Origin: Nitrospinota bacterium
GTDB taxonomy: Bacteria > Nitrospinota > Nitrospinia > UBA9942 > JAHJSF01
DNA length: 11,538 nt
Assembly (NCBI GenBank): GCA_018830405.1
Contig: JAHJSF010000021.1
Location: 1 to 11,538 of the forward strand
Direction: 5' to 3'
Every line of letters begins with the position of its first letter. The first letter of the stretch is position 1. The notes beneath the pieces are model-generated. The model made no database searches and had not been told where the DNA came from. It saw nothing but the letters and a program-made list of their open reading frames with translations. Positions 3,805 through 11,538 of this stretch are shown here, piece after piece. Both the position numbers and the translations under genes were made by a program.

Positions 3805-3966
3805 GGTGCTTAATTGCCTAAATCTTGCTGTAGCCGACCGGCCTTTGACGCGCCCGGCTTTGTCGTCAATCCTCGCCATAGACCCTGCTATGGCTACGGT
3901 TGTCTTCGTGCCAGTCGCGCCAAATTCTCGGTCTTGATACTACGCAGACTTAGGCAACTAAACACT
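3805..3966. repeat. Long imperfect palindrome, possible miniature non-coding repeat element
   Basis: Bases 3805-3824 and 3947-3966 are inverted copies of each other (16 of 20 match), built around TAATTGCCTAA and its counterpart. The same axis of symmetry, near 3885, carries a perfect hairpin: GCCATAG (3875-3881), loop ACCCTG, CTATGGC (3888-3894). Weaker matches between the arms continue outwards with bulges. The interior (about 3830-3930) is visibly richer in G and C than the AT-rich flanks. No reading frame here looks like a protein. It could be a miniature transposable element, a dispersed intergenic palindrome of the REP kind, or a structured RNA. Confidence 0.5.
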
Positions 3967-3991
3967 AATTTTAATACTCACCCAAAACTTG

Positions 3992-5996: not shown

Positions 5997-6455
5997 ATGG
6001 TTAAGGTTGCAATAGAAGAATGTGCCGAAAGGACCATAGACTCGATACATAAGATAGAAGATATCTTCAAGCTCAAGCCGTGTAAGAGCGTTATGCGCCT
6101 AGACCTCAACCTCCCCCATCTTAAGGTTCTCCGCTTTATCGCCCACGCCAGCCAGCCTCAAACGATCAGCATCATAGGAAACAGCCTCGACATATCAATG
6201 GCCATGATGACCAGAATCATAGACAAACTTGAAAACCACAAGTTGGTCGAAAGGGATAGAGACACAACCGACCGGAGAATCATCAGAATCAAGCTGTCGG
6301 CCAAAGGTAAAAAACTGGCCAAGGAATGTAACGATTGCCACAAGGAGCACATAATCAATATGCTAAACGGATTAACCCCTAAGGATAGGGAGATGTTTAT
6401 CGCGGCCATGAATACAATTACAGAGATAATATCAAGAGAGGGGGATAAAAAGTGA
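5997..6455 (+). CDS. MarR-family transcriptional regulator
   Basis: A 152-residue winged-helix repressor that probably senses a small molecule and controls the efflux genes that follow. Helices around residues 37-64 lead into the recognition helix ISMAMMTRIIDKLENHKLV (about 66-84). The wing ERDRDTTDRRIIRIKLSAKGK (85-105) carries the conserved D-x-R-D-x-x-D-R-R pattern. Flanking helices at both ends form the dimer interface. Several cysteines (C9, C29, C111, C114) are present, so redox or metal sensing is possible but not shown. Start ATG 5997 has a good AGAGGAAG ribosome site. The stop overlaps the tolC GTG start by four bases (GTGA). Autorepression is inferred from the palindrome over the promoter's -35 box. 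Confidence 0.92.
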   Translation: MVKVAIEECAERTIDSIHKIEDIFKLKPCKSVMRLDLNLPHLKVLRFIAHASQPQTISIIGNSLDISMAMMTRIIDKLENHKLVERDRDTTDRRIIRIKLSAKGKKLAKECNDCHKEHIINMLNGLTPKDREMFIAAMNTITEIISREGDKK

Positions 6456-7891
6456 TTAAGAGACTACTAATAGTAATCATCCCTATATTTCTCCTCTCCA
6501 GCCCGGTTTGGGGAGAAACGCCCGGCCCAATATCGATGGAAGAGTGTATAGAGATAGGGATAAAAAATAACTTTGACCTTAAGAAGACCAACTACGACCT
6601 GCTCGTCGCCCAGGAAGGAACGGAGCAGATTATGGCCCAATATGAACCGCTCCTAAGCTTCTCGACCGGAATAAAAGATGTAAGAAACCCTGTCACCACC
6701 GCTACATACGGTTCAAAGAGCAGAACCGACTCTGCCTCAGTAGGGATAAATAAAAAGACCGCCCTAACCGGCGGAACATTCGGGGCGACGTGGCAAAACT
6801 CCAAAACAGATACCAATGCCTCTTCCGCCTCCTTCAACCCCTCATACAATTCCGATCTAAGCCTTGCCTACTCTCAACCGCTACTCAATAATTTTGGGGG
6901 AAAGAATGACAGACGCAATATCCGCATCTCAAGGCTGAAGGAGGAGACTGCTTCTTTGGCCACAACCACAGAGAAAAACATCCTGATAAACAGGCTAAAG
7001 AAAGGATATCTCGACCTCAATTTCACCAAACTAAACCTTGAGGTAGAAAATAAAGCCCTAAGTCGTTCGCAGCAACTCCTATCCTTAAATAAGAAAAAGT
7101 TCGCCGACGGACTCATAGAGGAGGTCGATATCATAGCCTTAGAGGCAGCGGTCACCTTAAACGAGGCCTCCATCATGCTGGCCAAGGATGAGGTGAAAAA
7201 TGCCCGGGAGCAATTACTAAATATTATGGGAGTTAAGGAGGATATCGGCTACACCTTTACCGAGTTAAACCTCCTCCAAATACCGGAGGCTGTCCCACCC
7301 AACCAAGATGAGACAATAAGAATAACCCTAGCCAACCGGGCTGAACTGAAAATCATAAAAAATATATTGGAGATAGACTCGATAACCAAAGAGATAAAGG
7401 CCAATGAAAATAAGCCGTCGTTAAATTTTAATACCAGCTATGGATTCAGTAGTGCCGAAGAAAGCCTGTCCAACAGTTATGACACGGTCGGTGATGGGAC
7501 ATACCCATCTTGGTATGTCGGCCTAAACCTAACCCTCTACCCCTTCAGCCAGAAAGGGGCCAGCCAAGTGAGGGCGTCGGAATACACCTACGGCAAAAAT
7601 ATGGCCGAGTATGAAAGGGTCAAACTGGCCCTAATTACCGATTCCAAGGCTATAGCCCGCCACATAAGGACTCAGCTTTCATATATTGAGGCAACCAAAA
7701 ATGTAGCCTCTCTGCAGGACAAAAAGTTCAGACTTGAACAGGAGAAGTTTGCCCAGGGACGATCGGGCACAAAATGGTTGTTAGAATACCAAGATGACCT
7801 AAGCCAAGCCGAGATAAATAACCTGAAGGCCCTGACCGATTATTATAAAATCAAGGCAGACTTTGAACTTATAACCGGGGTAACAGAATGA
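6452..7891 (+). CDS. TolC-family outer-membrane efflux protein
   Basis: A 479-residue outer-membrane factor that would form the trimeric exit duct of a tripartite pump. Residues 1-21 are a signal peptide (positive start, hydrophobic IVIIPIFLL, cleavage after VWG). No lipobox cysteine follows, unlike OprM-type lipoproteins. The mature protein starts with the family's SMEECIEIGIKNNFDL helix (28-43). SLAYSQPLLNNFGG (137-150) is the typical strand-to-helix motif of the first repeat. The long helices after about 151 and the second repeat from about 290 follow the usual two-repeat OEP plan. Length is normal. It starts with GTG inside the marR stop and ends in an ATGA overlap with the RND gene, so the three genes are translationally coupled. 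Its partner adaptor is not encoded here. Confidence 0.93.
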   Translation: MIKRLLIVIIPIFLLSSPVWGETPGPISMEECIEIGIKNNFDLKKTNYDLLVAQEGTEQIMAQYEPLLSFSTGIKDVRNPVTTATYGSKSRTDSASVGINKKTALTGGTFGATWQNSKTDTNASSASFNPSYNSDLSLAYSQPLLNNFGGKNDRRNIRISRLKEETASLATTTEKNILINRLKKGYLDLNFTKLNLEVENKALSRSQQLLSLNKKKFADGLIEEVDIIALEAAVTLNEASIMLAKDEVKNAREQLLNIMGVKEDIGYTFTELNLLQIPEAVPPNQDETIRITLANRAELKIIKNILEIDSITKEIKANENKPSLNFNTSYGFSSAEESLSNSYDTVGDGTYPSWYVGLNLTLYPFSQKGASQVRASEYTYGKNMAEYERVKLALITDSKAIARHIRTQLSYIEATKNVASLQDKKFRLEQEKFAQGRSGTKWLLEYQDDLSQAEINNLKALTDYYKIKADFELITGVTE

Positions 7892-10173
7892 ATATAGCCT
7901 CCTTCTCAATAAAAAATAAGGTTCTCGTAAACCTCATAACTATAGCCGTCATGATTATCGGCATTGTAGTAACAATGGGGTTTAAGCGGGAAGCCTTCCC
8001 GACAGTTGAGGTCGATAGTGTTACCGTATCAACCAATTATCAGGGGGCCTCCCCTTTTGAGGTTGAGAAACTGATAACCATTCCTATAGAAGATTCTCTA
8101 AAAAGTATAGATGGTATAGATACCTACTCCTCCATCTCTCGCGAGGGGGTCTCCTATGTATTCATTGAACTAGATACCAATCTCCCTAACAAGGATAAGG
8201 TTATTAATGAGATATCGAGGGAGGTGGATAAGGTAGAACTCCCTCAAGACGTAGATGACCCAACCGTAAAAGAAATCATTCTTGAAAGGCCCTTAATAGA
8301 GATTTCCTTCTCAGGACACGATATATCGGAGGCAGAGCTTAGACAATACGCAGGCGACTTTGAAGATATAGTTAAAGAAATCAAAGGGGTAGCCTCTGTC
8401 GATAAGTCTGGATGGAGGGATAGAGAGGTATCTATAGAGATAGATCCGAAGAACCTTGAACGCTATTATGTCTCCCTTGAACAGGTTATCGAGAGCATCA
8501 GAAACCATAACCTCAATCTCCCCGGAGGTAAAATAACCAGCGGAACTAGGGAGTTGATACTCAGAACAGTAGGAGAACTGGAAAAGGCGGAACAGTTTGG
8601 AGATATCATAATAAGAACCAACAGTGACGGCCAATACCTGTATGTTAAAGATATCGCTCAAATAAAGGATACCTTTGAGGAGGAGGAGAAGATATATAAG
8701 ACCGATGGAAAGGTATCAATAAATATTACCCCCAAGAAGAAAGATGCCGGAGATACAATAACCCTCGTCAACAAAATAAGGGAAGAGGTAGAAGAGTATA
8801 AAAAGGTACTCCCTGAGAATGTATCTGTCGATATGCTTAACGACTCATCCCTTCGGGTCAAGAGACGATTAGGGGTTCTTATATCGAATGGAATAATGGG
8901 GCTAATACTTGTAATGATTACCCTTCTCGTATTCCTTAATGTTCGTGTTGCCCTTGTTACAGCCCTTGGTATACCATTTGCCTTCCTTACCGCACTTATA
9001 TTTATGTCCTTCTTTGGGGTAAGCCTCAATATGATAACTATGTTCGGGCTGATACTCGTTCTCGGTATGATAGTCGACGACGCCATAGTAGTATCGGAAA
9101 ATGTATACCGCTATATGGAAGATGGGCTGGAACCGGTTGAGGCAACAATAAAAGGGGCCACAGAAGTAGCCGCCCCAGTATCGGCCGCTGTGCTAACAAC
9201 CGTTGCCTCTTTTCTCCCCCTAATGTATATATCGGGAGTTCTCGGAAAATTTCTAAGGTTCTTCCCGATGGGGGTTGTTGCTTGTCTGGCCGCCTCTCTG
9301 TTTGAGGCCCTATTCATACTCCCTTCGCATCTGGCCGAATGGGTCAGACCTCTAACACCCACAAAGGAAGAGACAACTAAAAAGTGGTTTAATTTCTTCT
9401 CGCAAAATCGAAAGGGGAGCGAGGCACCATGGTTTAAGGCGATGAGCGATAGCTACGAAAGGATTTTGACCAAAGCAACAAAACGGAGATACCTCGTCTC
9501 TCTGGTAGCCTTTATAATCTTTCTTGCCGCTCTACTCTTCTCAGCTAAAATAATGTCGTTCAAGCTATTTCCAAATACGGTTGATGCCTTCTATGTAAGG
9601 GTAGAGACAGTTGAGGGTTCATCTCTTGCGGAGACCAATAAGGTTATATCAGAGATAGAGAAGATAATATTGGAACTCCCAAAAAGCGAACTTGAGAATG
9701 TAACCACAGTAGTCGGTTTCATAGGAGAAGGGGGACGTGGAGGACCTATGGATAAACATGGGAGCAAGTACGCCCAATGTGTAGCCTACCTAACCCCTGA
9801 AAACGACCGGGGGCGTGATGCCAACCAGATTATCGCTGCCATTCGTAAAAAAATAGAAGAGGAAAAAATATCAGGTTTTGTAAGCCTAAAGTTCGAACTT
9901 AACAGGCATGGCCCTCCGGTTGGAAAACCTGTGGCAGTCGAAGTTCGCGGGGATTCATATGATACCCTTATCAAACTATCGGAAGAGATCTCTGCCTATA
10001 TGGCTGCCCTTGAAGGGGCTGAAGATATCAGGTCAGACTATGAATTAGATAAAGAAGAGATTCAGGTATCCATCAACAAAGAAGAAGCTGCCAGGCTAGG
10101 CCTAAACGTTAGGATGGTTGCCGAGACAATCAGGCACGCCTTCGATGGGGGGGGGCGCTACAACCATGCGTAA
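7888..10173 (+). CDS. RND efflux permease, N-terminal part (frameshifted)
   Basis: The first 761 codons of an AcrB/HAE-type proton-driven inner-membrane pump. Transmembrane helix 1 spans about residues 11-30 and is followed by the first periplasmic porter domain. A block of helices at about 335-480 includes LGMIVDDAIVVSENVY, where D397 and D398 match the proton-relay pair D407/D408 of AcrB. Helix 7 is near 535-555, then the second porter domain begins. True homology stops at residue 756 (HAFDGGG); after the G9 run at 10147-10155 the frame reads RYNHA and a stop. Dropping one G restores GGGATTMRKDDED and a protein of 1047 residues ending at 11032, the normal RND length. As read, this product lacks helices 8-12 and could not pump. 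No adaptor gene sits beside it. Confidence 0.9.
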   Translation: MNIASFSIKNKVLVNLITIAVMIIGIVVTMGFKREAFPTVEVDSVTVSTNYQGASPFEVEKLITIPIEDSLKSIDGIDTYSSISREGVSYVFIELDTNLPNKDKVINEISREVDKVELPQDVDDPTVKEIILERPLIEISFSGHDISEAELRQYAGDFEDIVKEIKGVASVDKSGWRDREVSIEIDPKNLERYYVSLEQVIESIRNHNLNLPGGKITSGTRELILRTVGELEKAEQFGDIIIRTNSDGQYLYVKDIAQIKDTFEEEEKIYKTDGKVSINITPKKKDAGDTITLVNKIREEVEEYKKVLPENVSVDMLNDSSLRVKRRLGVLISNGIMGLILVMITLLVFLNVRVALVTALGIPFAFLTALIFMSFFGVSLNMITMFGLILVLGMIVDDAIVVSENVYRYMEDGLEPVEATIKGATEVAAPVSAAVLTTVASFLPLMYISGVLGKFLRFFPMGVVACLAASLFEALFILPSHLAEWVRPLTPTKEETTKKWFNFFSQNRKGSEAPWFKAMSDSYERILTKATKRRYLVSLVAFIIFLAALLFSAKIMSFKLFPNTVDAFYVRVETVEGSSLAETNKVISEIEKIILELPKSELENVTTVVGFIGEGGRGGPMDKHGSKYAQCVAYLTPENDRGRDANQIIAAIRKKIEEEKISGFVSLKFELNRHGPPVGKPVAVEVRGDSYDTLIKLSEEISAYMAALEGAEDIRSDYELDKEEIQVSINKEEAARLGLNVRMVAETIRHAFDGGGRYNHA

Positions 10174-11032
10174 GGATGATGAGGATATCGACATTGTCGT
10201 CAGGCTGCCTGAGAGGTTCAGGCAAAATATATCAAACCTGACAAACCTGACCATAGCCAACAACCAGGGGAGGCTTATATCCCTAAACAAGGTGGCGAAC
10301 TTCTCCAAATATCAAGGGGTGCGGGGGATTACCCATCAGGAAGGGAGGAGGACGGTAACCATAACCGCCTCTATAGACGAAGAGAAGACAACGGTTGTTG
10401 AGGTAAACAAAGCCATAGTTGAAAAATTCAGGGATATACCCCAAAAATATCCGGGCTACTATTTTAAGAGTGGGGGAGAATTTGAAGATACAACCGAATC
10501 GGTTCGCTCCATGTTTAATGCCTTCGCAATGGCCTTCATTCTTATATATATAATATTGGCTACCGAATTTGGGTCATTTATCCAGCCATTTATCATCATG
10601 GTCTCTATCCCCTTCGGGATAGTCGGGGTAATCATTGCTCTCTACCTGCATGGGAAACCGCTTAGCCTGATGGCCCTATTCGGGATAGTGGGATTAACCG
10701 GCGTGGTCGTTAATGACTCACTCGTCATGGTCGACTTTATCAACACGCTAAAAAATGAGGGGTTGGAGATAACCAAGGCGGTAGTTCAGGCGGCCAAAAC
10801 GAGACTCCGCCCGATACTCCTAACCTCCATAACAACTATAGCTGCGCTTTTGCCGCTGGTATATGGAATCGGGGGGAGAGAGGCCTTTCTCGAGCCGGCG
10901 GCTATCGCCATGTCTTATGGACTCTTTGCGGCAACATTGCTAACCCTCTTCATAATTCCCTGCACCTACCTAATCGCGGAAGATATAAAGACCTTCTTTA
11001 AAAGAGGAAACGCTGTAAAGAATGGAGAATAG
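10118..11032 (+). CDS. RND efflux permease, C-terminal part (second half of the split gene)
   Basis: This frame continues the RND protein from GGGATTMRKDDEDIDIV onwards. The TTG at 10118 is only the nominal opening of the frame, not a credible start; real RND sequence begins at the G9 run. It completes the second porter domain and carries five membrane helices (8-12): MFNAFAMAFILIYIILATEF; the IMVSIPFGIVGVIIALYL region; ALFGIVGLTGVVVNDSLVMVDF; TSITTIAALLPLVYGI; and ATLLTLFIIPCTYLIA. The helix matching AcrB helix 10 reads VVVNDSLVMVDF, so the position I align with AcrB K940 is N, not K. The last codons overlap the miaB start by 11 bases. The full gene is best read as 7888-11032 with one frame change. 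Confidence 0.85.
   Translation: MPRQSGTPSMGGGATTMRKDDEDIDIVVRLPERFRQNISNLTNLTIANNQGRLISLNKVANFSKYQGVRGITHQEGRRTVTITASIDEEKTTVVEVNKAIVEKFRDIPQKYPGYYFKSGGEFEDTTESVRSMFNAFAMAFILIYIILATEFGSFIQPFIIMVSIPFGIVGVIIALYLHGKPLSLMALFGIVGLTGVVVNDSLVMVDFINTLKNEGLEITKAVVQAAKTRLRPILLTSITTIAALLPLVYGIGGREAFLEPAAIAMSYGLFAATLLTLFIIPCTYLIAEDIKTFFKRGNAVKNGE
10147..10155 (+). repeat. Nine-G homopolymer at the RND frameshift
   Basis: Nine consecutive Gs follow TTCGAT. With nine the upstream frame stops 18 bases after the run (TAA 10171-10173); with eight the reading continues through the rest of the permease. It may be a sequencing or assembly error, a true mutation, or a slippage-prone switch. Confidence 0.9.
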
Positions 11033-11174
11033 AAAGCAGGTATATATAAAAACCTTCGGCTGCCAGATGAATAGTTACGACTCGGAGATCATGGCCGGGG
11101 TATTGAACAGCCAGGGCTACCAAATAACCAAAAACCAGGTCAAGGCAGATAGCGGTGCGGCTAAATCAGATTGA
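11022..11174 (+). pseudogene. miaB: 5' fragment of miaB (tRNA methylthiotransferase), truncated
   Basis: This short frame reads MENRKQVYIKTFGCQMNSYD, then SEIMAGVLNSQGYQITKNQVKAD. It matches the start of MiaB, the radical-SAM enzyme that adds a methylthio group to i6A37 of tRNAs reading U-starting codons. C14 in TFGCQMN is the first ligand of the N-terminal iron-sulfur cluster. MiaB similarity stops after KAD (base 11150), where intact proteins continue with a hydrophobic strand and NTC. Seven unrelated codons and a TGA follow. The radical-SAM and TRAM domains are absent. The start overlaps the RND stop by 11 bases, so miaB was the last gene of the efflux operon before the break. A transposase start lies 299 bases past the break. 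Confidence 0.85.
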
Positions 11175-11448
11175 TGCCTTGAGATATGAATAATAGTATT
11201 TTGGTATTTCCCCATTTTTGACCGACAATAAGAACTTATAGTGAAATTAACAGCAAGCTGGCATTAATATTACCCTATAAAGTAAAAGGGGGGGCTCCTC
11301 CTTCCCTAAATATCCACATATCGTAAAGATATGATAAAAAAATCACACAGCTGTCACACAAATATCATTCATATTCTGTAAACTGTGGTTAATATAGTTA
11401 AGGGTCATGACTAGAACAGCACATTAAAATATATGCTAATGTCTAGCT
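11151..11448. other. AT-rich non-coding segment between broken miaB and transposase
   Basis: No coding frame is visible; all frames are rich in stops. It begins where miaB similarity ends. It contains a small inverted repeat, CATATC (11317-11322), GTAAA, GATATG (11328-11333), and a seven-G run at 11288-11294. The left end of the transposable element must lie here. Two candidate boundaries are the break at 11151 (AGCGGTGCGGCTAAATCAG) and GGGTCATGACTA at 11402-11413, only about 47 bases before the transposase start. The matching right end is outside the window, so neither can be confirmed. Confidence 0.5.
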
Positions 11449-11538
11449 ATGACAGTAAAAAACAGGTATGCAAAACGTTCGAAAATTTCAGAGGCTAAAA
11501 TTCGTCAAATTGTGAAGCTTTTTTCACTAGATTTAAAC
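11449..11538 (+). CDS. IS1595-family-like transposase, N-terminal start only
   Basis: The last 30 codons of the window read MTVKNRYAKRSKISEAKIRQ, then IVKLFSLDLN, with no stop before the edge. The KNRYxKRSKISExKxRxIxxLFxLDL pattern matches, from memory, the start of IS1595-family (ISXO2/IS1016-like) DDE transposases. There it leads into a helix-turn-helix and zinc-binding region before the catalytic core. A stop in frame at 11437-11439 makes ATG 11449 the likely start, though no clear ribosome site precedes it. The catalytic domain is not visible, so whether the element is intact is unknown. It lies downstream of the broken miaB in the same direction. Confidence 0.72.
   Translation, partial: MTVKNRYAKRSKISEAKIRQIVKLFSLDLN

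Follow-up and report, generated by a model that had tools for sequence, protein, structure and literature searches.

Efflux is lost in natural gonococcal populations through frameshifts in short repeats, with mtrC affected in 3.8% of isolates and farA in 6.9%, mostly at an eight-T run (PMC7431566). Blochmannia has frameshifted yet undecayed genes at homopolymers, some of them essential (PMC3017870). Transcripts of E. coli and Buchnera showed homopolymer insertions in A/T runs only, and G/C runs were judged not to be prone to slip (PMC5574713). On the technical side, Illumina indel errors reportedly fall mainly in runs above 14 bases (PMC8808543).

The locus described here is an RND permease gene whose frame is broken, as recorded, at a run of nine Gs. 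It resembles gonococcal mtrC and farA in that a small indel within a short repeat disrupts the frame of a pump gene, but the gonococcal data come from hundreds of isolates, whereas here there is a single draft genome, and the repeat and the pump subunit are different. The likeness to Blochmannia lies in a single indel within a long homopolymer of a gene that is otherwise intact, with an essential gene (here glyS) also included; however, the Blochmannia runs are poly-A/T and the run here is G, and slippage during transcription has been reported for A/T only (PMC5574713). The frame break itself is confirmed, and we regard its explanation as ordinary.

The window, a stretch of 11,538 nt, is contig C131 of a draft genome of 1.42 Mb in 185 contigs, estimated to be 87% complete. 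It contains a MarR-TolC-RND operon on the forward strand (5997–11032), headed by a MarR-family regulator (5997–6455). The start of a TolC-like outer membrane factor gene (6452–7891) overlaps the regulator, and its end overlaps the start of the permease gene by 4 bases. A TolC-sized frame also lies directly 5′ of the permease in the two closest orthologous loci (L039 and L040). The operon context with a TolC-like factor and a MarR regulator is shared with the HAE-1-like RND permeases (ACR_tran; best NCBIfam profile RND_permease_2, NF033617), and the two parts of the gene cover nearly the full profile. The locus departs from that group in its broken frame, in scores that lie below the NCBIfam subfamily cut-offs and in the lack of an adaptor: no adaptor (MFP) gene was found in the window operon, so that, unlike in a tripartite system, the adaptor is not encoded with the permease.

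The permease gene spans 7888–11032 and is split into two frames by 10147–10155, the sole nine-G run within the window, where the change in coding score places a shift of one base. The N-terminal frame (7888–10173, 761 codons) ends at a stop 18 bases past the run, and the C-terminal part (10156–11032) is open to its stop at 11030–11032. The first-pass annotation had proposed that an extra G in this run splits one RND pump of 1047 residues, and several observations bear this out. The two frames match positions 1–745 and 749–1020 of the Pfam profile ACR_tran, as adjacent parts of one protein would, and a genome-wide profile search returned the same matches for both; coding statistics give +22 for a one-base change of register at the run against −20 for a continuous frame; and 7888–11029 comprises 3142 nt, which is 1047 codons plus one base. 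The mechanically listed open reading frame for the C-terminal part starts with a TTG at 10118, and an ATG at 10166 is also possible. This ATG, which lies inside the 3′ end of the upstream frame just before its stop at 10171 and has a G-rich sequence about ten bases 5′ of it, might allow reinitiation, such that the halves of the pump are made as separate pieces. However, the break (near ACR_tran position 747 of 1021) interrupts a periplasmic portion in the protein's second half, no such split is seen at this site in the nearest homologues, and an overlap of this kind is what chance would produce after a frameshift; we consider a two-piece pump extremely improbable.

In both of the closest orthologues the permease is full length in a single open frame, and the C-terminal part in the window aligns to them gaplessly, with 70% identity to L039 and 67% to L040. 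Further decay after the lesion, as a pseudogene would show, is not seen within the gene: the 277 aligned residues contain neither a stop nor a gap, in agreement with the earlier claim that the rest of the gene is intact, although a truncated miaB remnant does follow it. The coding score per codon is 0.163 in the C-terminal part against 0.175 in the N-terminal part, with similar values in the neighbouring genes, and the branch lengths relative to the orthologues are 0.85 and 0.89, respectively. By these comparisons the gene is not decaying, and the lesion, if real, would be recent. No other members of the same family were found among the relatives searched, and the flanking sequence was not found in viral contigs.

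Where the window has nine Gs, L039 and L040 have no G run, their sequences being GAAGGCGGCCTT and GAAGGCGGGGTGGC. The third glycine that the run encodes is found at that column in 0 of 90 homologues, a column that was read gaplessly and is therefore rough for the distant ones; L039 and L040 have Leu and Val there. This glycine may have arisen when a substitution fused shorter runs of G into a longer, unstable one, or the bases may have been miscalled.

A second gene of the same genome provides an internal control. A run of 14 Gs (L137:3046–3059; G000:C150:8745–8758) breaks glyS, directly 3′ of glyQ (the latter named from its sequence), and the parts on either side align with the glyS profile over 1–147 and 149–684. 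No second glyS copy, and no glycyl-tRNA synthetase of the dimeric type above the cut-off, was found in this genome, leaving glyS as the sole gene for this enzyme that was detected. In relatives where the gene lies clear of contig ends it is uninterrupted, and the Trp of its MRW motif, kept in all seven relatives read, is replaced by Gly within the run. This is the stronger of the two cases: glyS is needed and cannot be dead, and therefore the recorded sequence is not what all cells express. Because that record must be either wrong or one of several lengths, the lengths of G runs in this consensus cannot be relied upon at face value.

The reading that we tentatively favour for the pump, and regard as quite possibly though not yet probably correct, is that the recorded length of the nine-G run is wrong or is the consensus of mixed run lengths, and that full-length pump is made. 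The gene would then encode the ordinary RND permease of a MarR-TolC-RND operon, one base out of register only in the recorded sequence; the true run would be in frame, or cells of mixed run length would have been collapsed into one consensus, with the whole pump made in either event. We prefer this reading because the glyS control shows that such a failure happens in this assembly, and we infer that the run in the pump gene is a recording failure of the same kind. The first-pass annotation had named sequencing or assembly error as the leading ordinary explanation, and the like break in glyS supports it. Also counted in its favour are the odd third glycine, the undecayed C-terminal part and the contigs that end on G runs. 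At least three contigs (C7, C31 and C98) end on runs of 8–9 Gs, against about 0.5 expected, and therefore the assembly has trouble at such runs. Against it, the class of Illumina errors above 14 bases is nearly reached by the glyS run but not by the nine-G run of the pump gene.

The frames of other runs also weigh against an error. We checked 55 stretches around runs, in a sample that also took 20 contigs chosen by number (five of them masked), and counted only G/C runs that were clearly coding. All 64 runs of 7–8 bases were in frame, as were 15 of 16 at nine bases (the exception being the RND gene) and 3 of 3 at 10–11 bases, while the single run of 14, in glyS, was not. For nine-base runs the failure rate is thus 1 in 16, with a 95% interval of 0.2–30%. 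In-frame runs at glycine motifs include those of FtsZ (10 Gs), FtsA (9) and FtsH (10), the genes being named from their motifs, and the intact ten-base runs in the ftsZ-like and ftsH-like genes count against the error reading together with the nine-base result. An error-prone platform with general homopolymer errors is ruled out by the 64 of 64 runs of 7–8 bases in frame. Apparent shifts at two 8-base A/T runs and two 6-base G runs proved to be gene junctions or gene ends.

Since 15 of 16 nine-base runs are in frame, the record is mostly trustworthy, and this argues for the principal alternative: a recent loss-of-function allele, in which a G was gained by replication slippage and all or most of the sampled population is without the pump. 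Such a loss would be unregulated, and the allele may decay or revert. Loss of efflux by repeat frameshifts has its precedent in the gonococcal populations (PMC7431566). Genome-wide, the single clear match to RND_mfp lies on contig C8 beside another RND permease gene, which is open, and therefore the pump in the window may be dispensable and a real loss possible, a point that also counts against the error reading. The gene next to the permease is a truncated copy of miaB, and mutL was not found in the 87%-complete genome, where mutS was found only as two N-terminal pieces, one a 68-residue remnant and the other a gene start merely cut by a contig end. Loss of mismatch repair as the proven cause is not accepted, given that cut piece and the incompleteness of the genome. 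Against a genuine loss, the C-terminal part bears no sign of relaxed selection, and glyS demonstrates that breaks recorded at G runs by this assembly are not necessarily genuine. We regard a recent loss as plausible, but on balance improbable.

The miaB remnant (11024–11170, forward strand) comprises approximately the first 38 residues of a second copy; it overlaps the 3′ end of the permease gene and does not belong to the pump, and a complete miaB is present on contig C109. It is one of two truncated duplicates of gene starts, the other being the mutS remnant (L208:2826–3074), which lies 3′ of a cation antiporter-like gene; both are 5′ ends only, and each matches another copy in this genome at 84–93% DNA identity. 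The window ends in an insertion-sequence-like element (11398–11538), with a transposase-like start near 11449, which is 99% common to the end of contig C127 and also occurs at other contig ends; contigs probably stop there because of this repeat. A further dispersed repeat of about 165 bp (window 3806–3968) is near-palindromic, with a strong predicted fold (z −5.2), and is MITE-like. Scanning 302 kb of the genome gave 14 full-length copies, with 74–96% identity, and 3 partial ones; it is absent from the related loci compared, and an Rfam search gave no match.

Runs of 8–12 Gs are classical tracts of phase variation, and this counts for a reading in which the pump gene is a contingency locus, its run changing length frequently and reversibly and selection keeping a mixture of on and off cells. 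The genome is rich in such runs: counted with overlaps, eight Gs match 202 times and nine Gs 52 times, corresponding to about 109 runs of length 8, 36 of length 9 and 5 of 10 or more, and long G runs are distinctly fewer in relatives of the same order. Extrapolating the fall in number from length 8 to 9 predicts more runs of at least ten than are present (5 of 41, p ~0.03), and a shortage of this kind is expected if long runs are unstable. However, this abundance can be put down to codon use. Glycine is most often encoded by GGG, which is likely why long G runs are many, and resampling of synonymous codons yields nine-G runs at a comparable rate (about 1.0 expected in every 81 kb of coding DNA), so that no selection for a switch need be invoked. 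Runs of 9 and 10 Gs are found in the housekeeping genes ftsZ, ftsA and ftsH as well, and one run length is seen, in a single draft assembly. A contingency locus would have its run kept in relatives or enriched beyond composition, and we found neither in L039 and L040 or by codon resampling. The earlier suggestion that the run may switch the pump accordingly fares poorly: the run is missing from the nearest orthologues, codon bias explains its length, and no second run length is seen. Adaptive phase variation is without positive support, and we consider it unlikely.

Slippage by RNA polymerase at the run could instead give a share of full-length mRNA, as has been described for the poly-A frameshifts of insect endosymbionts; Blochmannia offers the precedent (PMC3017870), and glyS would be a similar case here. 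The first-pass annotation had raised this as a way of lowering the level of the pump. We consider it very unlikely because G runs in bacteria, namely those in E. coli and Buchnera transcripts, are reported not to slip (PMC5574713). Also very unlikely is a broader version, in which a lineage rich in long G runs, and perhaps without mismatch repair, lets run lengths in several genes (among them the pump gene and the essential glyS) wander between in-frame and out-of-frame states, with function kept up by a standing mixture or by rescue through slippage at G runs.

These observations counsel caution: when a draft genome shows a frame interrupted at a G run, this is weak evidence that the gene is lost or phase-variable, and a needed gene broken likewise in the same assembly, as glyS is here, serves as a simple control from within. 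Should the mixture of run lengths be real, the locus would represent slippage-driven loss of efflux in an uncultured bacterium, comparable to that in gonococci.
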